A stretch of DNA of 64,000 nucleotides from NCBI GenBank assembly GCA_964036195.1, contig OZ038453.1, positions 4,975,469 through 5,039,468 on the forward strand, given 5' to 3'. The DNA comes from Sphaerolaimus hirsutus. Lineage: Eukaryota; Nematoda; Chromadorea; Monhysterida; Sphaerolaimidae. The number at the start of each line of letters is the position of its first letter. The stretch's first letter is position 1. The notes below the pieces were generated by a model that saw nothing but the letters and a program-made list of their open reading frames with translations, was not told the origin of the DNA and did no database searches. Below are positions 3,182 through 63,188 of this stretch, in pieces. Position numbers and translations under genes: made by a program.

Positions 3182-5053
3182 ATGCCACAACTGACCATGT
3201 CGTGGTCTATTAGAGGAAAGGATAAATCCACAAAATTTCTGCGAGAGATCGAGAACGTCATCAACCCGACGGATCCCCCATCCAGCTATGACGCCCTGCT
3301 TGAATTTTTACAGCAATGGGCAAAGTACTGGTTTGGGGTAAAACAGCGGAAAAGGAAAGAAACAAAGTATGGCAAGAAGATACAAGAGATCAAACGAATG
3401 CTCAAGCAAAAAAGACGCACACTGCATGAAGGTAGACTTGGTATAATAGAATACCGAGAATACCGGAAAAGGGGACTTGGAGACATCAGACAACAAGAAA
3501 TAGCCGCACATGATGACAAACTGGAGCAAATAATGGAAAATGAGCTGCAGTACGGAATCGAGAACACTAATCTGTACAAGATGGCTCAGAAACTACGAGA
3601 GGCTGATGTTAAGTACCCAATGCTCAAAATCGGAAATAGACCATGCAAAGATGACATGGAACTGAAACACGTTCTAAACAAATTTTGGAAGATAATACAA
3701 GCACCAAATCCAGCAAAAGCGAATTTCAGAACCGACAGTGGAATGATAGGAATTATTGACAAAGCCCTGGCTGACAAATTGGATACAGAAATTTCGACAG
3801 CAGAAACAAGAGAAGCTTGCAGGCGACTAAAGCTGGGAAAATCGGCTGGCACAACAGGGATATCGCACGAGATGCTAAGGATGCCGGGACCGAACCTAGT
3901 TGTCACGCTGAAAAACCAAATGAACTGGTGGTTTAGTGGCCAGGAAAAAATACCAAGAAGCGCACAAACGTGCAAACTGGTCCTGCTACATAAAAAGGGC
4001 TCAAAATCAGACGTTAATAACTACAGAACAGTTGGGATACAATGCAACATCCTAAAGCTGTACTGTTCAATCCTACATAAACGACTGATGGACGGTTTTG
4101 AATGCAACAATTCCTTTGGTGATATGCAAGCAGGATTCAGGGCGAACAGGAGAACAACAGACAACCATGTGATACTACAGGGGTGCCTGGCGGAAACAAA
4201 CCGACTGTCAGCATGTTTTGTGGATGCAGTGAAAGCTTTTGACAGGGTTGAATGGGGACGCCTCTGGGTGAAGTTAAGAGACTACGGATATGGCAAAAAT
4301 CTGTGCAAGGCAATAGAAAGCACCTACACGGATCAAAAATGCTATCTGCAGTACAACGAAGTCTGCACGGATGAACTTGACTACCCGCTAGGGGTGCGAC
4401 AGGGTTGCTGCCTAAGTCCAACACTATATGTGCTGTATATGGCCGACCTAAGAACAAAATTGGAAAGAAGCGGACTTGGAGCCAAGTTAGGAAACGAGAG
4501 AATACCAGCCGGGTTCTTTGTGGATGACGTGGTTCTCATGGCAAATATAGACATGGACCTGCAGAAGATAATGGACATTTTCACAGAGTGGAGTCACGAA
4601 TGGGGGATCAGGATCAGTGAACAAAAGAGCATGATCCTGCATTTCAGAAGGAGTGCAGTTGCAAACAGAGAGTGGTACCTGGGGATAGGGGCAGATGGAA
4701 ATAAGCAGATCATAAGAGAATGTGACAAGACTAAATATCTGGGCATCCTTCTGTGCAGCGGCCGTGACCCATTTCAAAAACAAAAAAGCGGATATATGGA
4801 TAAGCTAACAAAAGGGCAATTCCTCGCAAAAGAAGTCACAAAACACAGCCGAAGACAAATATGGGCGCTAAATATGCTCTGGGGGGCATATGTGGCCAGT
4901 ACAGTGATGTACGGCGTCGAGATAACAGGACTCTCAAAATCTGCGCTAAAACAAATGATGACGTCACAGATGGGACTCTATCGACAAGTGGGAAATGTAG
5001 GAAAACACATCTCAAACAAACTGCTTTACAATTCTGAGGTTTTTAGTGTGTGA
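3182..5053 (+). CDS. Non-LTR retrotransposon reverse transcriptase
   Basis: Intact 623-residue frame with all reverse-transcriptase blocks in order. They are LGKSAGTTGISHEML (about 217-231), LHKKGSKSDVNNYRTVGI (about 273), QAGFRANRRTT (about 318), FVDAVKAFDRVEW (block A, about 347), PLGVRQGCCLSP (block B, about 402), FFVDDVVL (block C, about 444) and a GIRISEQKS block D. The catalytic Asp residues are present, although block C is FVDD where most LINEs have YADD or FADD. The first 160 residues are basic and helical. There is no apurinic or restriction-like endonuclease upstream or downstream, and no zinc knuckle. The ATG has CCACC in front of it. Either the copy is 5'-truncated and by chance keeps an ATG, or the endonuclease is absent. 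The product would copy element RNA into DNA at the target site. Confidence 0.85.
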   Translation: MPQLTMSWSIRGKDKSTKFLREIENVINPTDPPSSYDALLEFLQQWAKYWFGVKQRKRKETKYGKKIQEIKRMLKQKRRTLHEGRLGIIEYREYRKRGLGDIRQQEIAAHDDKLEQIMENELQYGIENTNLYKMAQKLREADVKYPMLKIGNRPCKDDMELKHVLNKFWKIIQAPNPAKANFRTDSGMIGIIDKALADKLDTEISTAETREACRRLKLGKSAGTTGISHEMLRMPGPNLVVTLKNQMNWWFSGQEKIPRSAQTCKLVLLHKKGSKSDVNNYRTVGIQCNILKLYCSILHKRLMDGFECNNSFGDMQAGFRANRRTTDNHVILQGCLAETNRLSACFVDAVKAFDRVEWGRLWVKLRDYGYGKNLCKAIESTYTDQKCYLQYNEVCTDELDYPLGVRQGCCLSPTLYVLYMADLRTKLERSGLGAKLGNERIPAGFFVDDVVLMANIDMDLQKIMDIFTEWSHEWGIRISEQKSMILHFRRSAVANREWYLGIGADGNKQIIRECDKTKYLGILLCSGRDPFQKQKSGYMDKLTKGQFLAKEVTKHSRRQIWALNMLWGAYVASTVMYGVEITGLSKSALKQMMTSQMGLYRQVGNVGKHISNKLLYNSEVFSV

Positions 5054-6427: not shown

Positions 6428-7585
6428 ATTTATTAGGATGCAATGAATGCCGCTGCACACACTAGTTTACTAACGGAAAACTAAGTATTTTGTAAACTCA
6501 TTTTTCAGCTTCTGAGGGCATCTGAGTTTACCGGAATGTGTTTTTTTTTATCTCCATCAACTGTAGTTGACAAACAGCTCATTTCGGTAAACTCAGATGC
6601 GCTGGTCTAATACATGTACTACTGCAGGAGTCGGTGTGTCGCGCAGATTTCAAACGTGTTATATCGATGTTAAATGGTGTGTTCCTTATAAAGCACAACT
6701 CACTGATTATGGATCCGCTTAGAATTCCAAATAACAAAAATTTATGGAAGATGACTTACTAGCGCATGACACTATATTGTCTCATAATATATAATTTTTT
6801 TAAATGTTGTGCGATCGCTCTTCAATTTGCCATGCGCATTTGAAAACATTTCCTGATATCGCATGCAAAAAATCACATTCCCAGGTCATCTGTGTCAATA
6901 GTTATGACACCGGGCTAATTCAACTTGTGCACAAGTGGAATAAGAATATCACTTGTGCACAAGTAACTGCATTTGCGGAGACAGCTTTTTTGTTTTGTAT
7001 ACAAAGCAAAATGCACTTGTGCACAAATCCACGTGACTACCGGACCGGAGTACCGGAACTGTAATTAAATGAAATTTTCTGGTCCGCCAGTGAAGTGTGT
7101 TGCGGAGAGATAAATTGTGGAATGTATTTAAGCAGATTTGGCCTGATCCGCAAGTGAAGTGTGTTGCGCATCGGCAAACTTAGGGGTGTAATTAAAGAGA
7201 CATTGTGTTGTGCACTAGTAGCTCATATCGCGCATCTCAAGTTCGATTTGGCTACTGATAGAAATGCAAAAAAGAGGTCATAAATAGATGAAAACATAAG
7301 TACAAGTTCAGGAATCGTTGAATGTAACACACTTAGGTGCCGCAAATGAATAAATTTGCAAATGTAAACCACTAAGTAGCAAGTTACGTAAATTAAGCAG
7401 ATTAATGCGTGTGAACTGGAAATAGAACACACATTGTACTTAAAATGCACTTGCATATATAAATAGAGCAATCGATAAGTGTGCCAGCGCACCCAACCCA
7501 CTTTAATTACTCACTCGATGCATTTATCGATGAATATATGCAGTCAATTGTAGGAATGTGAAATTAGCAGATGTAGAGATTGGGG

Positions 7586-7851: not shown

Positions 7852-9784
7852 ATACCTCGTTCCTCGTTATTTTGCCCATTATTTTGACCGTATATTTTGC
7901 GCAGTTGGTGAAAATGACTTATATTGACATTAGCAGAAATCAGAAATTCAGTTACAAAAACGTATCACCTCTGCTTCAAGTCATGGCGACTTGTGCACGA
8001 CACACGTGACTTGTGCACAAGTCTAATTGTTGACAAAATGATTTAATTTGATTGATTTGAACGAAAACGTATCTCCTCTGCTTCAAGTCAAAGCGATTGA
8101 TGTTGATGACGCACGGATGTTGATTATGGAAAATTGACTTCTGCACTAGTAACATGTGTTGTGCACAAGTCTCTTTGACTTGAAATATGAAAAATGTTTT
8201 CAAAAAGGTGTAAAACGTTCACCAATGTCCTACTAATTAATTCTCTAATGTTTGTTTATTTTATGTCTATTTGAATTAGAAATTTGTCACCTGTACTTCC
8301 AATAAACACTTCACACATTCCAGTTGCAACACAAATTTATACTTGCACAATCCGCATTTGATGCAGTCAATAATTCTCTGCACCAAATGTCCCCAATCTC
8401 TACATCTGCTAATTTCACATTCCTACAATTGACTGCATATATTCATCGATAAATGCATCGAGTGAGTAATTAAAGTGGGTTGGGTGCGCTGGCACACTTA
8501 TCGATTGCTCTTTTTATATATGCAAGTGCATTTTAAGTACAACGTGTGTTCTATTTCCAGTTCACACGCATTAATCTGCTTAATTTACGTAACTTGTAAC
8601 TTAGTGGTTTACATTTGCAAATTTATTCATTTGCGGCACCTAAGTGTGTTACATTCAACGATTCCTGAACTTGTACTTATGTTTTCATCTATTTATGACC
8701 TCTTTTTTGCATTTCTATCAGTAGCCAAATCGAACTTGAGATGCGCGATATGAGCTACTAGTGCACAACATAATGTCTCTTTAATTACACCCCTAAGTTT
8801 GCCGATGCACAACACACTTCAATGGCGGACCGGAAAATTTCATTTAATTACAGTTTCGGTACTCCGGTCCGATAGTCACGTGGACTTGTGCACAAGTGCA
8901 TTTTGCTTTGTTTATACCACAAAATAATAGCTCCACAAGTCATGTTTACTCGTGCACAAGTATATTTTGCTTTGTATACGAAACGAAAAAGCTGTCTCCG
9001 CAAATGCAGTTACTTGTGCACAAGTGATATTCTTACAAGTGTAATCGTGCGCGAGCAAAAGTCCATTTACTTGTGCACAAGTTGAATTAGCCCGGTGTCA
9101 TAACTATTGACACAGATGACCTGGGAATGTGATTTTTTGCATGCGATATCAGGAAGTGTTTTCAAATTCGCATGGCAAATTGAAGCGCGATCGCACAACA
9201 TTTAAAAATATTATATATTATGAGACAATATAGTGTTATGCGATAGACAGTCATTTGCGGACATTTTTGCCATTTTGTCTATTTCGAGTTCTAAGCGGAT
9301 CCATAATCAGTGAGTCGTGCTTTATAAGGAACACACCATTTAACATTGATATAACACGTTTGAAATCTGCGCGACACACCGACTCCTGCAGTAGTACATG
9401 GTGCGCCCTAGATGCGCTCAGAAGCTGAAAAATGAGTTTACCATATTCTTAATTTACTGTTAGTAAACTAGTGTGTGCAGCGCCATTAGTTTACAGAAAT
9501 GACCAGTCATGAACTACTGTCTAAGGAGATTGACAAGTTTTCGATCAAGTTGTAAATTGGAACCATGAAAACTAGCTTGTGTGGCGCCATTATTAAGAAA
9601 ACATTTTATGAATTTCAGAATTTAAAGAAAAATGTGGACTTTTTCGAAACAGTTATTACTACAAAGGGAGCTGCTACACTTGGCATGATGTGAGTCATAT
9701 TTATAAATGTGATATTTACTTTCACTTCAAACACAAATTACACAAATGGGTCAAATTTTGTCAATAAACAATTTGAATGCTTGC

Positions 9785-27105: not shown

Positions 27106-30100
27106 ATGACTTGGATTGAAACTATTTCTGCAGCCATATCATTATTTTTGCTGAGTTACTCCTCACGTTACGTTGAAAATACACCCGTTTCACAAGGAAA
27201 CGTTTTAGATGAATGCCTAAATGCACCTGGTGCCTGTCCCAGACCCTGTCAAATGCTTTGTAAAATGTCAAATGTCATGCAAAGTGTCAAAAGTCATGGA
27301 AAATTCTCTGCAAAATGACAACCGTTGCCATTTTGCAGGGCATTTTCCATGACTTTTGACACTTTGCATGACATTTGACACTTTACAGGGCATTTTACAG
27401 GGTCTGGGACTGCCCCCTGATTTTCTTAGATTTGGTCAGTGTGCCAGGAAATTTTACCACGAAAAGGCAACACTTTCCGATTTGGAATGGAATCAAATGT
27501 TGCCAAATGAAAATGAAGCGCAGGCTTATAATACTGTGAGTTGACATTTAGCTGATTTTGTTCTTATGAATTTTTCCATCATATCACATTGTTATTTTCA
27601 TAATTTCCCATTTTTCAGCTGATATTTGATGTTGTGAGAAATGGTGAATGTGATAACTCACTGCTTTCAGGGGCACATCCCAGAGTATGTAAAAAGCCCT
27701 GTAAAATGTAAAATGTCATGCAAAGCGTCAAAAGTCCATGGAAAATGCCCTGTAAAATGGCAACTCGCATTTTGCAGGGCATTTTCCATGACTTTTGGCA
27801 CTGTTTGCATGACATTTTACATTTTACAGGGCTTTTTTACAGGTTCTGGGAGTGGCACCACCATGCTCTGTTTTGAATGGGCAAATTCTATTGAGTACAT
27901 TTTTGGTTTGTTCCTCTAATAATCTGTTCATGTTCAAAATACGTAATATAAATAGTGTAGTGTCATCAAAAACATCCTAAACATCATACAAATTTCAGAC
28001 AAAACACTGTATAATTCACGAATCTCAATTAAATTCGCAAGGAAAATTCAAGCGTGCCATGCCAATTGTAGTGATCAACGTTTACAGCAGCAAAGTTGGC
28101 AAGTTGCCAGAAAATGGTGTTTACAACAGGAATATGACACATGTGTATGATGCTTCTGTTCATTCCAGGTTTGCTTGTAATATGTAGAATTGGAAGGGAT
28201 CAATTTAACATTGTAATCATTTGAATTGATACTGAATTCTTTTTGTGTAAATCTTCAGTTATTTTTTGTGCGTACTGTAAGACCTGAATAAATCCCCACT
28301 CAAAAACTGACCCTTTTTGTATAACTCCCCCCGGTTAGTTGGCTGAGGCAAAAACACCCCCTCGAAACCCCCCCCCCTCCTCTTTGAAGTGTGGGAAAAA
28401 CATCCATGTACAAAAACGTCTTACATTTACCAAAAAACCGACAAGGTAATGAATGCATTTACCTATTTAACGTGCATTTTGCTTTTTATTCTGAAGAAAT
28501 GACAAATCAGGAACGTCTGACTGACGAAATAACGACCTGGGTGCACTCCCAGTCCCTGTAAAAGATCCTGTAAAATGTCAAATGTCATGCAAAGTGTGAT
28601 AAGTCTTGGAAAATGCCCTGCAAAATGGCAACTCGGTTGTCATTTTGCAGTGCATTTTGCCTGACTTTTGACACTTTGCATGACATTTGATATTTTACAG
28701 AGCTTTTTACAGGGTCTGGGGGTGGCACCTGGGCACTTGTTCGAGGCTTTACAATAAATCAAAGTAAAAAAACCCATGACTGCAAATTTTCAGCACCACA
28801 GAAAACGCGCCATATTTCCTGCACCATTCAGCTGCGCACTATAAATCCGATGGCGCTGTGGATCTGCAGGCGTTTGCAATTTATGGTGCATCGAATTCTG
28901 ATTCGGTAGTTGTGTCTACCGTGAGAAGGGATGCAAGCATGTGGGTACATAAGTACAGAGATATTTATGTTTTTGTGTTGGCAGTGTGCCAGGATTTGTT
29001 TACGTGAGGGACCACTGTATTGTTATGAGAAATGTTCTAAGTTGTTTGACTACCACAAACAAATGAATACACACAAACCACAAATACCTTTATAAATATG
29101 CTGAAAATCGAATTTAAAGTTGCATTTCAAAAGTAGCCACTTAAATCCAAAGTCAAATATCATTATAAAATCCTTGATTCACAACCACTCAGGGACAAAC
29201 ACAGCACATGTCAGCCAAAATACTGGCCGACAGATGGAGCACACAACAACAACACATTTTATTTCTTTGCAAATTTGGTCATTTGGCAATATGCCATTGT
29301 TGCTGGCAATTGTCCAAAATGTGCCTTCATTGAGTGGCATGGAAAGGCGAAAAGTTGTAAAAATGTCACTGCCTTTGTTAGTGCTGGACTGAGCAAGGAA
29401 GGTGGCATTTATGAGAGAAATGATTTGGCTGTGAATAAGGTGTGCTGGAGGTAAAAATACACCCCCCCCCCCTCCAGTTTCTGCCATGGAGGCTTAGAGA
29501 AGATATTCCCTCAAGTGAACACTGCTTTGAATTAACCCTCCCCATTGAATTTTGTCACTATCACACTTGTGTCCATGCTGTCCTGTATGTAATGTTGGCA
29601 GATAAGGTACCAACGAAATGTTATGTAGTTTTATTTATAAGGCTATTTCAAAAGTCAATAATTGGCGTGTATGTGTTGTTTGCATGTTAATAAGGTGAAT
29701 TTTAACCAAATTAGCATGCACAAAATTTTTGCGAGATGGTTACACGCGCTGATGCGTAAACAGCCTATTTATAATGAAAAAAATAAAATATGTTCAATAC
29801 AATTTTAACTTATAGGATATAAGTGTTGGTATGTAATTGGTCCAAAAAGCACAGCATTGAGTCACCCAACTAAAATTGTTTGTTGTAATGCCAATAAAGC
29901 ATTTTCAACCAATGCTTGAAATTTGGAAATTTTACCACAATAAATTTTCATTTAAAATTTAACAGAAGCTTGTCATTTTTTTCGAACATTGCATATTCAT
30001 TCTTACAGTTGGTCAGGGCAATGAAAGAAATTTGGAAAAGGGATGGTCAGAATTACACAGGATTTACACCAGTAAATGACACGTGCATTTTGAAGGCAAC

Positions 30101-33311: not shown

Positions 33312-36300
33312 ATGTATCGTCCAGCTAAAACTGCTGCATTTTCAGTATTTTCTACAATCACAATTTTGGTTCAATACACCAGAAGTGAATTTATTATTAA
33401 AGAACAAGAACGATGCCCCAGGTAGCAATCCCTCACTCTATCAAGTTAAATGTGCAGTGACAAATATAACACAAGCTTTCAAATTACGACTAAACTACAC
33501 AACACAATCAATTGTCATATTTTCTTTCAGTTTGAAAGAAATTGTTAAGTGATAATGTTATTGATGAAGATTCTTTTACACAATTCAGAAGTCATCACAA
33601 CACATACAGGATTGGAGTTTTTTTCCCTCACTCAGCTTCCAGGGGTGTATTCGTAGGGTTCCCGATCCCAAAACCTGTGAAATTTAGGGATTTTGCAGTC
33701 CTGATCCTGATCCTGCAACCGCAATCCCGATCCCAATCCCGAAATGTCCAAAAAGCCAATCATGATCGCAATCCTGATCACGCAACATTTTAAACCCAAT
33801 CCCGATTTTGAAAACTTTTTCCTCATCCGGATCCCAATCCCAGGGTATTTGCCAAAAAAACTCTTTTGCACCAACAAATATGTTTGAAAACATCCAGTGA
33901 AGCATCTTTTACCACCTCTCTGGCATCCTAAATGTTTTAGGCCCTTTTTATGCAAATTTATTGAAAAACCTTCAATACCAGAACATTATCCAAAGTCCTG
34001 ATCCTGAATCCAATACAATCCTGATCCTGAAAAATTGCCAATATCGATCCAGATCCTGTGACCCCAATCCCGATCGACATCCTAATCCCAAAATCTCAGA
34101 AAGGCAATCCTGATGGTTATTTAGTGTTATTTGGACTAACACCAGGCTACCAATGAAAATTAAATTTAACTGGCAGTGGAAATGTTGTTGAATATAATCT
34201 CTCATAATTATAATATCATTTAATCTCTCTGGGAAGTGTAAATAATGAAAATATGTGAAGAAAAATCTTATATCCTTGATATTTTTAGATATTTTGAACA
34301 TATAAATCTCTTTAAATAAATATCAATAATGTTTTCAATGCTAATCACATCTTATTATTGCATAAGAGCATGTAGAAATGGAATATTTAAAAAATATACA
34401 ACAGTTTTATGAAAACAACAATCAATGTTGATGTGTATCATTGCAATAGATAATTGATGTACAATGTCTGAAATTTGTCACTGTTCTCTAAAAGCTTGTT
34501 GGATTGCCCTCAGGATCAAAAATGCATACTACAAGTTGCCAAGTGTGATGGAAAATAATGAGATTTGTTACTGGCTGGTTGAAGACTTGCACACAAGGAA
34601 AGAGATTGCTTCAATTTGTTCTGAACAAGGAGGAATGATGGCATGGTTCACTTCTATGGACCAATTAACTTTTGGCAGTGAGTGGGTGGGGTGTTTTTTC
34701 ATTGAATATTTGAGGTGTCCAAGTCTGAAAGTTGATAGGTTAAAAATATGAAAATTGCATGTTATTACCAGAAACGCCATCCGGGGCTATGCTACTCCCG
34801 CACATTTTTAATTATTTTCCATACGTCATTCATAGTGCCAAATTTGACATTTTTTGGGGAAATTTGTCAGAAACTGACAGGAAGAATTTGGTGACAATTA
34901 CACTTAGTTTTGACCTAAAAGTCCACCTTTTGCAGCAAGAAATGTGATAAGTCCACTATTTGCAGATGCTCTGATAGCAAGAATGAGGAACCATTCTGTA
35001 CTATGGTTGGGAACATCACAATTTTTCGATTTAGGTATCTGGTTCTGGGTTCAAAAAGTGTGGGTCAGTCACCGGGTATTGGTTCCAAAAATCTCAGATA
35101 TTGGATAAAGATCTCAGATAAGGGTATTTACATGGTCGGGCTGAAAAGTCACCAGGCAGTGCTCGCCATTCGCGCTAGGGGTAAGTTACGGTTATAAAAT
35201 TATAACACGTTAATATATCAGGTGTTTTGAGTTTTCACCCAAAATTTCACCCCTCTAGCTCCACCCACTGCGGAACTGCGGGGGTTACAATTTTGGTCAT
35301 TTTGTACTGATGTACAAATGGTGCTCTAGCTCAACGCTGCTTTAAGTTGTGATCATGAAACTTTGGCTAGTGTAAGCCACCAGTGTTGGTAATGTGCTGA
35401 TAGTATTCAACACTTTCATCAACATCATTGCTATTAAGGTAAAATTAATATGCAGATCAGGGTGATGTGCAAGAAACGTGGGAACTGTGATGGATGTTTT
35501 TGGTGATCATCTGAGATCATGTTGTATTGCAGTGATTTTAATGTTAGCTTTGAAATGTGCAGTAAATTATTATGTCAATTAAATTTCATTTGTGTCTCAT
35601 TACTAATCTGTAGTGGACACATTATCTGTGTTCAACAGCAGTGTGCATGAAAAACGCCCCCTGTATTGACCTGTATTGACCAACCTTAGAGGCAGAATGA
35701 TGAATTTGGTAGTGAGAGTAGTGACAGTAANNNNNNNNNNNNNNNNNNNNNNNNNNNNNNNNNNNNNNNNNNNNNNNNNNNNNNNNNNNNNNNNNNNNNN
35801 NNNNNNNNNNNNNNNNNNNNNNNNNNNNNNNNNNNNNNNNNNNNNNNNNNNNNNNNNNNNNNNNNNNNNNNNNNNNNNNNNNNNNNNNNNNNNNNNNNNN
35901 NNNNNNNNNNNNNNNNNNNNNNNNNNNNNNCCACCGCATATCAATTGTTGCTTTATTTAGTACGCTGAACTTAAGATAGCTTTTGTCACCTTGAATTCCC
36001 TGAAAAATTCGAAAACTATTTTCGAATTTTTGAATTTTTGAATTTTCGAATTTTTTAAAAAATAAATCGATTTTTAAGTGTTTTTTTCCAGGGGTGGAAT
36101 AAAAATTCGAAAATAATGAAAAAATTCGAAAATTCGAAAATATTTTCGAATTTTCGAATCTTTTTTTGCCATCGTTAGTGACCATACTTCACAATGCTTC
36201 ACCATGCATCCACAAACCCGTTTTTCTCTGTGTTTGGATCCAAAAACTGTGGCATAAATTTATTGATGGTTTGCATCAGTTCTGTTCAGGTCTGGTCAGG

Positions 36301-55257: not shown

Positions 55258-55686
55258 ACCGTATTACCTCGAATTATCCCCCCCTTGAATTAACCCCCCC
55301 CCCCTCGAAATACCCCCCCCTAAATTTCGGCTGAGGAAATAATAAACCCCCCCCTCGAAATACCCCCCCTAAAATTGAGTGTAACGTGAACGTACATGAC
55401 AAATACCGCAGTTTGTGATCTGTACTATGCAGAACACACGTTAAAACTGATGATTAAGTGACGTTAGGGAAGGGTTTTTGTGTATATACAATAATATATG
55501 CCTATAAACACATATAAATCTATGTGATTGTTTGATTTTTCTACGTCAGCGTATGGGGAATTTCCGAAAATTTCTGGTGAAATAATAGACCCCCCCCTCA
55601 AATAAACCCCCCCCTCGAATTATCCCCCCCTCAAATTTTGCTGGCGAAATAATAAACCCCCTGGGGGTATTTCGAGGTAATACGGT
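55258..55686. mobile_element. CCGTATT poly-C/G MITE nested in the TAGGGTGTC element
   Basis: TA|CCGTATTACCTCGAATTATCC to TATTTCGAGGTAATACGG|TA. Present at the same place in both duplicate copies (58264-58692), so it predates the duplication. Confidence 0.85.
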
Positions 55687-56580
55687 AAATACAGATTGGA
55701 AAAATAATGGAAAAATGCCAGAAAACTGAAAATTGAGCCAGAAAATGCAAAAACGGAAACGGAAAGGTAAAATTTTTTGGCTGCTGGAAAACGGAAAACG
55801 GAAAGGGTAAAAAAAATTTTCAGCTGCCGGAAAACGGAAAGGTAAAAAATTTTCAGCTGCCAGAAAATGGAAAATGGAAAGGTAAAAAATTTTCCTGCAG
55901 AAAAGCGGAAACAGAAAACGGGAATGGAAATTTGACACCCTACTCACGATGCATCACACACTAATTTTTTTGCTGTGATTCTATCCTACATATTCTGTAT
56001 TCTAATTTATGTTAGTAGGTTTTTAGGTAATGTGATGAAGCCTAAACTTCACATTTCAACCAAATCTTTATAAGTGGGTATTTTTTGTGTTGAATTAGGT
56101 AGTTCAGTTTCAGTTAAATTAGTTCAACGAAGTTTGGGCACATTCATTTTGTTGACCTGGCCATGTTTCAAATTGAAAATATGAAGAGAAATTAAAGAAC
56201 GTTGGCATGTCACAAGGTGACATTTGGAAATCACATTTCTCTCTTCTTGCTGGCTATGGTGAGCTCTGCTTTGAAGTGTAGGCTCAGAGCCAGATAACAC
56301 GTTGGGTGAGCCTGCCTCTTAGCGCTGCCAGCGTGGTTTGGTAGCGCTGCGCTGGCCAGCATGTTACAAATCTGAGATGGATTTATTTAGCACTTGTGTG
56401 TAAACCAGAGTTGTTAAAAGTACTGAACTTTTTTGAAGTAAACATAAATGTGAATCACTTTTTTGCTCACCACTCAGTACAGAAAACTTAAAGTATTTTT
56501 TAGGAATTTTGCCCCAATTTACAGACAAAATTACTATTTTCATATCGTTTTGCCAATATCCATCCTCAAATTCAATAGTT

Positions 56581-57703: not shown

Positions 57704-58949
57704 TAGGGTGTCAAAAAAATTGTTTTATGGAAAACGGAAAAGGGAAAGGTAAAAATGTTTAACTTTATGGAAAACGGAAAACGGAAAGGTAAAAAAAAAA
57801 ATTATCAGCCAGAAAACGGAAAAAATTTGATGCCAGATTTATAAAAAATTTAAACGGAAAACGGAAAGCGAAATTTTCATAGAAACGGCAAAAATAAAGG
57901 TAAAATTTGCACGGAAATGGACAAATTTGCAGGAAGAAAACCTGGATGCAAGTTTGCCTGTTTGGCTTTGATCGTGGTAGCTGTACATTCTGCAACTATA
58001 TATCATGCCAGTAACTTCACTTGTAGTTCAAGCTTAACTGAACCAACCAAAAATCATCAAAAGGTAGCAAAAGTACAATACAACAACAATAAGAATTTAG
58101 CAAAAGTGAACTTAGATGTATATGTACAGTAAAAAGTATACTCAGCAGACTGCAAAGTATGTGTCCAAAATGACTTTGTGTTTTTTACAGATTTGGATAC
58201 AGATAAAAATTATGAATGACACAAGAACCTGGTAGTTAAAAACACCATAGTGAAAAAAAGATACCGTATTACCTCGAATTATCCCCCCCTTGAATTAACC
58301 CCCCCCCCCCTCGAAATACCCCCCCTAAATTTCGGCTGAGGAAATAATAAACCCCCCCCCTCGAAATACCCCCCCCTAAAATTGAGTGTAACATGAACGT
58401 ACATGACAAATACCGCAGTTTGTGATCTGTACTATGCAGAACACACGTTAAAACTGATGATTAAGTGACGTTAGGGAAGGGTTTTTGTGTATATACAATA
58501 ATATATGCCTATAAACACATATAAATCTATGTGATTGTTCGATTTTTCTACGTCAGCGTATGGGGAATTTCCGAAAATTTCTGGTGAAATAATAGACCCC
58601 CCCCTCAAATAACCCCCCCCCTCGAATTATCCCCCCCTCAAATTTTGCTGGCAAAATAATAAACCCCCTGGGGGTATTTCGAGGTAATACGGTAAATACA
58701 GATTGGAAAAATAATGGAAAAATGCCAGAAAACTGAAAATTGAGCCAGAAAATGCAAAAACGGAAACGGAAAGGTAAAATTTTTTGGCTGCTGGAAAACG
58801 GAAAACGGAAAGGGTAAAAAAATTTTTCAGCTGCCGGAAAACGGAAAGGTAAAAAATTTTCAGCTGCCAGAAAATGGAAAATGGAAAGGTAAAAAATTTT
58901 CCTGCAGAAAAGCGGAAACAGAAAACGGGAATGGAAATTTGACACCCTA
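57704..58949. mobile_element. hAT-like element with TAGGGTGTCAAA ends (copy 2)
   Basis: Same inverted ends as 53755-55942, with exact CTCACGAC repeats on both sides (57696-57703, 58950-58957). At 1246 bp it is the uninterrupted form apart from the CCGTATT MITE at 58264-58692. Confidence 0.9.
57917..58132 (+). CDS. Small secreted-type open frame carried by the TAGGGTGTC element
   Basis: 71 codons. After MDKFAGRKPG comes CKFACLALIVVAVHSATIYH, a typical signal-peptide hydrophobic core with an A-X-A-like end, then a Ser/Thr- and Asn-rich tail (SNFTCSSSLTEPTK, NNNKNLAKV) to TAA. The same frame persists in the other element copy (54945-55127), where the upstream part was cut by a MITE. It looks like a captured first exon of a secreted-protein gene, since the natural start would be just before KFACLAL. 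It may not be expressed. Confidence 0.35.
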   Translation: MDKFAGRKPGCKFACLALIVVAVHSATIYHASNFTCSSSLTEPTKNHQKVAKVQYNNNKNLAKVNLDVYVQ

Positions 58950-60251
58950 CTCACGACGCATCACACACTCATTTTTTTGCTGTGATTCTATCCTACATAT
59001 TCTGTATTCTAATTTATGTTAGTAGGTTTTTAGGTAATGTGATGAACCCTAAACTTCACATTTCAACCAAATCTTTATAAGTGGGTATTTTTTGTGTTGA
59101 ATTAGGTAGTTCAGTTTCAGTTAAATTAGTTCAACAAAGTTTGGGCACATTCATTTTGTTGACCTGGCCATGTTTCAAATTGAAAATATGAAGAGAAATT
59201 AAAGAACGTTGGCATGTCACAATTTGACATTTGGAAATCACATTTCTCTCTTCTTGCTGGCTATGGTGAGCTCTGCTTTGAAGTGTAGGCTCAGAGCCAG
59301 ATAACACGTTGGGTGAGCCTGCCTCTTAGCGCTGCCAGCGTGGTTTGGTAGCGCTGCGCTGGCCAGCATGTTACAAATCTGAGATGGATTTATTTAGCAC
59401 TTGTGTGTAAACCAGAGTTGTTAAAAGTACTGAACTTTTTTGAAGTAAACATAAATGTGAATCACTTTTTTGCTCACCACTCAGTACAGAAAACTTAAAG
59501 TATTTTTTAGGAATTTTGCCCCAATTTACAGACAAAATAACTATTTTCATATCGTTTTGCCAATATCCATCCTCAAATTCAATAGTTCATCTGCTTTCTG
59601 CCAATTTTCAGCTATTGTTGTTCATATATCTGCTTTCATAACACATTTTGACCATTTTCCCTCATTTGAGATTTTTTCTTACTTTTTCTCTACTTTGCCT
59701 TGAAAAAGCCATATAAAACGTTTCCTGTACTCACTCGTGTGCTTCCAAAAAGTAAAGCAGAACCAGTATTTTTTCAGGAGGAAACATAGACATATTTACG
59801 TAGTACTCGAGTATACGTAATTATCTAATAAACATAAATATGTTTTAACAACTATGGTGGAAACCTCAAAGTATAACATAAAGTGGAACATCGCAGGATA
59901 CCAAGTGGGGTGTGTTCATGAGACATAATATGAGTCTCGATCCTACTGAACAGGTCTGATTTTATGCAATAACTACATTTTTTTAATGTAAAAAACGTTT
60001 TTCTCTTCAAAGATCTACACAGAACAATCCATTAAAATATACTAAACCAGCAATTTTGTGTTTACTTAAAAAATGCAGTCCAGAAAAATATAGGGGAGGG
60101 TTCTGCAAGTGGCTGAGTAAAATTACAGGTAATTCACAATTTTTACTAAACTTACCAGGTAAATTAAAAGTAAAACTTTTTTCACTAAAATTGTATGCAA
60201 ATTGTATTTTATTTTAAAATTATTGATGTTTCATTTTATTTTATTTTATTC

Positions 60252-62918: not shown

Positions 62919-63114
62919 ATGTTTTAACAACTATGTTGACTGCATGTTTTGCTATAATTACCAAAATTTGGTGAAAAAAGTCATCTGAAAAATTCTGTTG
63001 GAATTGTCACACTTGAAATTCGTGTATTATTTTATGAGGAAACATGTACCTAAATACTTTTATTATTTTTTCAGATGGTGGTATATGGTAGAGAATGAGT
63101 GCAAAATTGCAATT

Positions 63115-63188
63115 GCCATAGGCGGGAATCGAACCTGTGCCTCTCGTATAGAACACGAGCGCCCTAACTGCTGGACTACTGTGGCGGC
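63115..63188 (-). tRNA. tRNA-like sequence (tRNA-Arg, UCU-like), probably decayed
   Basis: On the minus strand the 74-bp sequence has a perfect 5-bp anticodon stem (CTCGT/ACGAG) with loop GTTCTAT (anticodon UCU), a typical A-box region (TCCAGCAGTTAGGGC) and B box (GGTTCGATTCC). The acceptor stem pairs at only four of seven positions and the T stem has two mismatches, so it is likely a pseudogene or the head of a tRNA-derived SINE. The plus-strand peptide read from it is spurious. Confidence 0.5.

Follow-up and report, generated by a model that had tools for sequence, protein, structure and literature searches.

How new introns originate has long been debated, and few introner families have been reported in animals. 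In the available part of the survey by Gozashti et al. (2022; PMC9860276), introners are non-autonomous DNA elements in coding genes, many with terminal inverted repeats (TIRs) or target duplications; some families carry one splice site and draw the other from the target duplication. Most of them leave the mRNA at its original length, and of the animals and land plants surveyed just two groups, each of them animal, had such elements. The introner elements of Amoebophrya, as far as the accessible description extends, are MITE-like hairpin introns with direct repeats of 3-5 nt over the exon borders and non-canonical ends (Farhat et al., 2021; PMC7789003). NuwaI transposons (PHIS superfamily), in the portion of their account at hand, are confined to animals, duplicate a CWG target and have TIRs that usually start with GGG (PMC4482050). 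The literature searched contained no paper combining introners with NuwaI, and none combining introners with bryozoans.

Here we describe SLM, a foldback family analysed from copies in a 64,000-nucleotide stretch of an invertebrate genome (the window) and genome-wide. Within the available part of each source, SLM resembles the surveyed introners in being a DNA element with TIRs and a duplication in coding genes, and differs in its thousands of copies, 3-bp CWG duplication, full-length foldback, invertebrate host and a splicing that is so far predicted (PMC9860276). With NuwaI it shares the CWG duplication, whereas the GGG start occurs at one SLM end only; the accessible NuwaI account does not describe those elements as introns, and SLM copies are candidate introns (PMC4482050). 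Amoebophrya introners form hairpins as SLM does, but belong to a dinoflagellate and have variable splice motifs, in contrast to the GT 5' end of sense SLM copies and their favoured 3' AG (PMC7789003). Euglenid nonconventional introns, from what of their description was available, have variable borders and, in common with the SLM foldback, a stable secondary structure that draws the two intron ends together; SLM differs in its GT start, its TIR transposon features and its lineage. As to the host, the invertebrate mitochondrial code, with AGA as Ser and TGA as Trp, suits 900 bases of COX1 on the mitochondrial contig (C762, 14,754 bases), judged against residues presumed typical of COX1, which would make the host neither an ascidian nor a vertebrate.

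Like introners, SLM is a repeated, transposon-like family of similar copies: genome-wide, its left end (CWGGTGCCANTCCCAGACC) has 4083 exact matches and CWGGGGGCANTCCCAGACC has 2945, with none for either reversed pattern. We compared 134 copies, merged after removal of duplicates from a set of 64 (drawn by similarity to the window copy at 27671-27858, from the window itself and from 30 loci chosen by position) and a set of 86 (position on contig C1), with right ends set by a scoring rule that leaves some uncertain. Flanking 3-mers were CAG/CAG in 46, CTG/CTG in 31, CTG/CAG in 11, CAG/CTG in five and others in 41; matching CAG or CTG flanks, the CWG target-site duplication of NuwaI, thus occur in 77 of the 134. 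One terminus reads GGGGCA, as NuwaI TIRs usually begin with GGG, and the other GTGCCA. Window positions 34464-34711 match locus L037 minus its element and one CTG, with 82% identity across the site. The element-free open reading frame there (34464-34751), which gave no Pfam match, is a paralogue of the SLM-bearing L037 (around 2003-2191), about 80 kb away. By its CWG duplication and one TIR end SLM looks NuwaI/PHIS-like, which would assign it to that transposase group, where a PHIS DDE transposase with a Myb/SANT partner does the mobilising. DDE_Tnp_4 (PF13359) transposases have 163 matches in the genome, none tied to SLM termini.

Several loci hold more than one relative: at least two lie within about 4 kb at each of L009, L019, L021, L032, L034 and L038, and the flanks of L021 and L023 look paralogous by eye, with the element at the same place. 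Separately, of the full-length DDE_Tnp_4 matches listed, most cover roughly 633 bases, include some 190 extra bases and have 3-5 stops, mostly TGA. We rejected an SLM copy inside the transposase gene (L135), since in the part read from one copy the extra stretch opens with other sequence; that part suggests a start at GTGTGT after an open frame, perhaps that of an ordinary intron.

The copy that drew attention to the family has the following parts.

27671-27858, minus strand: SLM foldback MITE, antisense to the gene (element sense being GTGCC end first)
27668-27670, plus strand: left target-site copy CAG, by copy comparison
27859-27861, plus strand: right target-site copy, decayed to CAC and without an AG acceptor, by copy comparison
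27671-27861, plus strand: interval of exact removal, which keeps the frame (NSLLS^ACSVLNGQ) and lacks GT-AG ends
27685-27842, plus strand: candidate intron, AGA^GTATGT...TTTTTTACAG^G, in frame

The earlier note had presented this copy as a foldback MITE at 27670-27857 that created an intron upon insertion. The foldback stands, as the 188 nt pair with themselves almost perfectly (hairpin energy -125.1 kcal/mol, z -20.5, none of 200 shuffles as good), and the limits become 27671-27858 by comparison with other genomic copies, to which identity reaches 90%. The splice sites it named, GTATGT from 27685 and TTTTTTACAG ending at 27842, are both there; deleting 27685-27842 joins 22 to 21 codons free of stops, reading LIFDVVRNGECDNSLLSGAHPR and then VLGVAPPCSVLNGQILLSTFL, and the phase agrees with both neighbouring exons, which end at 27535 and start at 27999. 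This junction keeps 33 nt relative to exact excision. The putative target-site flanks, CAG and CAC, are a CWG duplication decayed on one side, and with CAC as the 3' copy exact removal yields no GT-AG. The arm has GTATGT where relatives read CCCTGT, and GT occurs at that place in two of the 134 copies, one apparently misaligned; the secondary donor would be a product of mutation. For this antisense copy, with its target AG lost, the secondary pair GTATGT...TTTTTTACAG is a plausible exit, and in the predicted scheme set out below the copy is a decayed exception to the family rule.

The in-phase junction is in itself unsurprising, and weak evidence. We took the 88 of the 134 copies that are flanked at each end by CAG or CTG and have a length up to 215, in two orientations and three phases (528 cases), and counted an exit if it was GT-AG, in-frame and stop-free with at most 33 nt kept. 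Such an exit was present in 376 of the 528 cases (71%). With CAG on the 3' side it was found in 159/159 sense and 117/120 antisense cases; with a CTG 3' target copy, in 46/105 sense and 54/144 antisense cases.

The predicted host gene carries three copies of the element and comprises four exons joined by GT-AG introns in a phase-0 chain, with a possible fifth exon seen by eye near 29.98 kb.

27106-27535, plus strand: first coding exon, interrupted by SLM at 27230-27416 and followed by donor GTGAGT
27230-27416, plus strand: second SLM copy, sense, with CTG target copies at 27227-27229 and 27417-27419
27619-27905, plus strand: second coding exon, interrupted by 27671-27858, with TTTTTCAG before and GTTTGT after
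27999-28168, plus strand: third coding exon, phase 0 in and phase 2 out
28540-28728, strand not assigned: third SLM copy, with CTG target copies, within a putative ordinary intron (28169-28793)
28794-28944, plus strand: fourth coding exon, phase-compatible

Deleting 27230-27416 and one CTG rejoins ECLNAP^DFLRFGQC. Pfam gave no domain in the later gene model and one sub-threshold match with the first, and a search with an earlier model, its third exon in another frame, returned no paralogue beyond the gene itself; the gene model therefore rests only on phase and composition, and the predicted gene is an orphan. Stop-free length alone was discarded as a coding test, being too weak and misled by strand, and codon models were discarded as driven, in our judgement, by G+C, with the wrong strand in L012, L115 and L117; because of these faults we used only a composition score for the window exons. 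The first exon scored 8.2 and the fourth 6.8, against 95% levels of equal-length open window stretches of 8.2 and 4.3, and the third 2.3 (95% level 4.8). The second exon scored 0.15 with exact removal (95% level 2.8) and 2.8 with the 27685-27842 junction, a longer version without a matched level.

The element might instead lie within an ordinary longer intron, for example from donor GTGAAT at 27644 to the acceptor at 27998, with 27619-27905 noncoding. The orphan status of the gene agrees with this, as does the composition of the exactly excised exon, which is near zero where the junction of the earlier note gives 2.8. Such an intron, however, leaves a remnant exon of 25 nt and shifts 27999-28168 to a frame with a stop before donor 28169 (a further GT sits immediately ahead of the stop), whereas the four-exon phase-0 chain requires the interrupted exon and its first and fourth exons score at or above their 95% levels. 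We consider the longer intron unlikely.

Elsewhere in the window we observed a retroelement reverse transcriptase reading frame at 3182-5053 (RVT_1, E 1.8e-28), a run of about 200 N inside listed open reading frames at 35603-36185, two pairs of near-identical reading frames, probably from other repeats (7223-7501 with 8475-8753, and 55546-55947 with 58553-58954), and a minus-strand tRNA-Arg (TCT) gene at 63114-63185.

The argument for SLM as an introner comes from conserved domains that other copies interrupt. At 39 loci chosen by eye, giving 40 joined peptides, we deleted the element and one target copy and searched the product against Pfam; a domain ran across the junction at E <= 1e-3 in nine, five above the Pfam curated cut-off and four below.

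L007: WD40, below the curated cut-off
L012: trypsin, above the cut-off
L027: AMP-binding, above the cut-off
L033: lustrin, below the cut-off
L017: ASK_PH, below the cut-off
L117: CBS (AMPK-gamma), below the cut-off
L065: Neur_chan_LBD (3e-18), above the cut-off
L115: PAN_1, above the cut-off
L107: CHGN (9e-11), above the cut-off

Removal from coding exons thus restores protein at 9/39 loci, as with introners. L063 gave LRR_6 (2e-12), whose best stretch lies on the right-hand side of the join; weak spanning matches (E about 0.006 to 0.009) came from L029, L089 and L108, with a partial OrsD (3e-4) in L089 as well; and the remaining loci of the 39 gave no junction-spanning match at E <= 0.05. Against solved structures, L117 aligned to AMPK-gamma (3e-25) and L065 to the nicotinic receptor (1e-14), both without a gap at the junction, the L007 peptide aligned to WD-repeat chains, the alignment of L027 with acyl-CoA ligases had a gap of four residues at the junction, and the L012 trypsin peptide had no solved-structure match. 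On the opposite strand, 20 joined peptides, drawn from 19 loci, gave no Pfam match at E <= 0.05, in a control set that is not matched to the tested one, the tested peptides having been picked by eye and the controls largely by score. Element sense agreed with gene sense in seven of the nine domain loci; L027 and L017 are antisense.

We suggest the following rule, read from the ends of these copies. From a sense copy at CAG, the ordinary spliceosome would remove the element by the pattern CAG^GTGCCA...CAG^, the donor GT being the first bases of the element and the acceptor AG that of the duplicated target; with GT from the edge and AG from the duplication, the mRNA would be restored exactly. 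We take GTGCCA to be a weak donor relative to the consensus. An antisense copy at CAG would use an internal donor eighteen bases in (CCT^GTAAAA) with the target CAG, adding 18 nt; antisense copies at CAG begin with GGGGC or similar, and the 18-nt exit was read in L017 and L027.

The 3' target copies follow this rule in part. AG is present there in six of the nine domain loci, and changes that made or kept it are seen in L007 (CTG to CAG) and L012 (CAG to TAG). Genome-wide, CAG stands at the 3' target copy in 1760/2945 (59.8%) and at the 5' copy in 2183/4083 (53.5%; p = 1.6e-7), an excess that is a statement about averages because the 3' and 5' counts come from non-identical sets of copies. Linked CTG/CAG and CAG/CTG pairs in the sample, 11 to 5, point in the same direction and are not significant alone. 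The other three domain loci have non-AG edges (CCG in L065, CTG in L107 and L117) and their domains are rejoined nonetheless; the window copy at 27230-27416 is of the same CTG-ended kind as L107 and L117. The L107 CHGN domain is a single locus in the assembly, that is, no spare copy was found. In-frame GT-AG exits with an insertion can be read from these sequences, of 9 nt in L065, 51 nt in L107 and 18 nt in L117. The CTG- and CCG-ended copies would either leave through a 3' site other than AG or by some other exact mechanism, or exit at internal AGs and so add residues, or else sit in assembled alleles that are broken.

Three alternatives to the GT...CAG scheme were weighed. Exonic copies may be unspliced insertions, young or still segregating, by which the assembled allele is broken, their exact rejoining reflecting clean insertion only. 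A clean MITE insertion does give an exact empty site when the MITE is deleted along with one target copy, and CTG-flanked exonic copies (L107, L117, window 27230) do lack AG at the edge; yet L007, L012 and L065 combine diverged target copies with an intact flanking frame, and both the genome-wide 3' AG excess and the agreement of orientation in 7/9 loci speak against it, so that we regard it as improbable. A second reading is exact removal whatever the last bases, with structure-guided or relaxed choice of the 3' site (GT-TG or hairpin-bridged), as in non-canonical introners. The domains rejoined in L065 (CCG), L107 and L117 (both CTG), the hairpin of the window copy (z -20.5) and the Amoebophrya introners, which in the accessible account have hairpins and no fixed splice dinucleotides (PMC7789003), all accord with it, but the preference for AG at the 3' target copy and the existence of in-frame GT-AG exits of 9, 51 and 18 nt speak against it; we find it not very likely. 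A specific form, which we hold to be slightly more doubtful, is that SLM is removed exactly from mRNA even with CTG or CCG at its 3' end, that any CWG trimer can give rise to an intron still lacking an AG, and that later T-to-A changes in the duplicated target turn such an intron into a standard GT-AG one. Finally, a transposase could excise the DNA exactly in the soma, the assembled DNA keeping elements missing from the expressed genome. This mechanism would be indifferent to splice dinucleotides, and the DDE_Tnp_4 matches (163) offer candidate enzymes, but it leaves the strand agreement in 7/9 loci and the 3' AG excess unexpected, and we think it very improbable indeed.

We conclude that SLM is likely, as a whole scheme, a NuwaI-like, non-autonomous foldback transposon of about 189 bp that takes CWG trimers, exonic ones included, as targets and is predicted to be spliced at its edge GT and the duplicated CAG. 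As to kind, SLM is probably an introner, in keeping with the earlier note, since other copies interrupt conserved domains; the mechanism proposed there gives way to the edge GT and duplicated CAG that we infer. Internal splice sites as intron ends would not be the rule of the family, where the typical sense copy presents GT at its edge and CAG beyond it, nor would terminal repeats become codons in such a copy. SLM probably represents a new family of introners, formed by a NuwaI-like MITE of an invertebrate host. If so, a family numbering thousands and obeying one simple rule at its edges would make intron birth, orientation bias and splice-site maturation countable in one animal genome, and the CTG-flanked copies would show how far AG is needed at intron birth.
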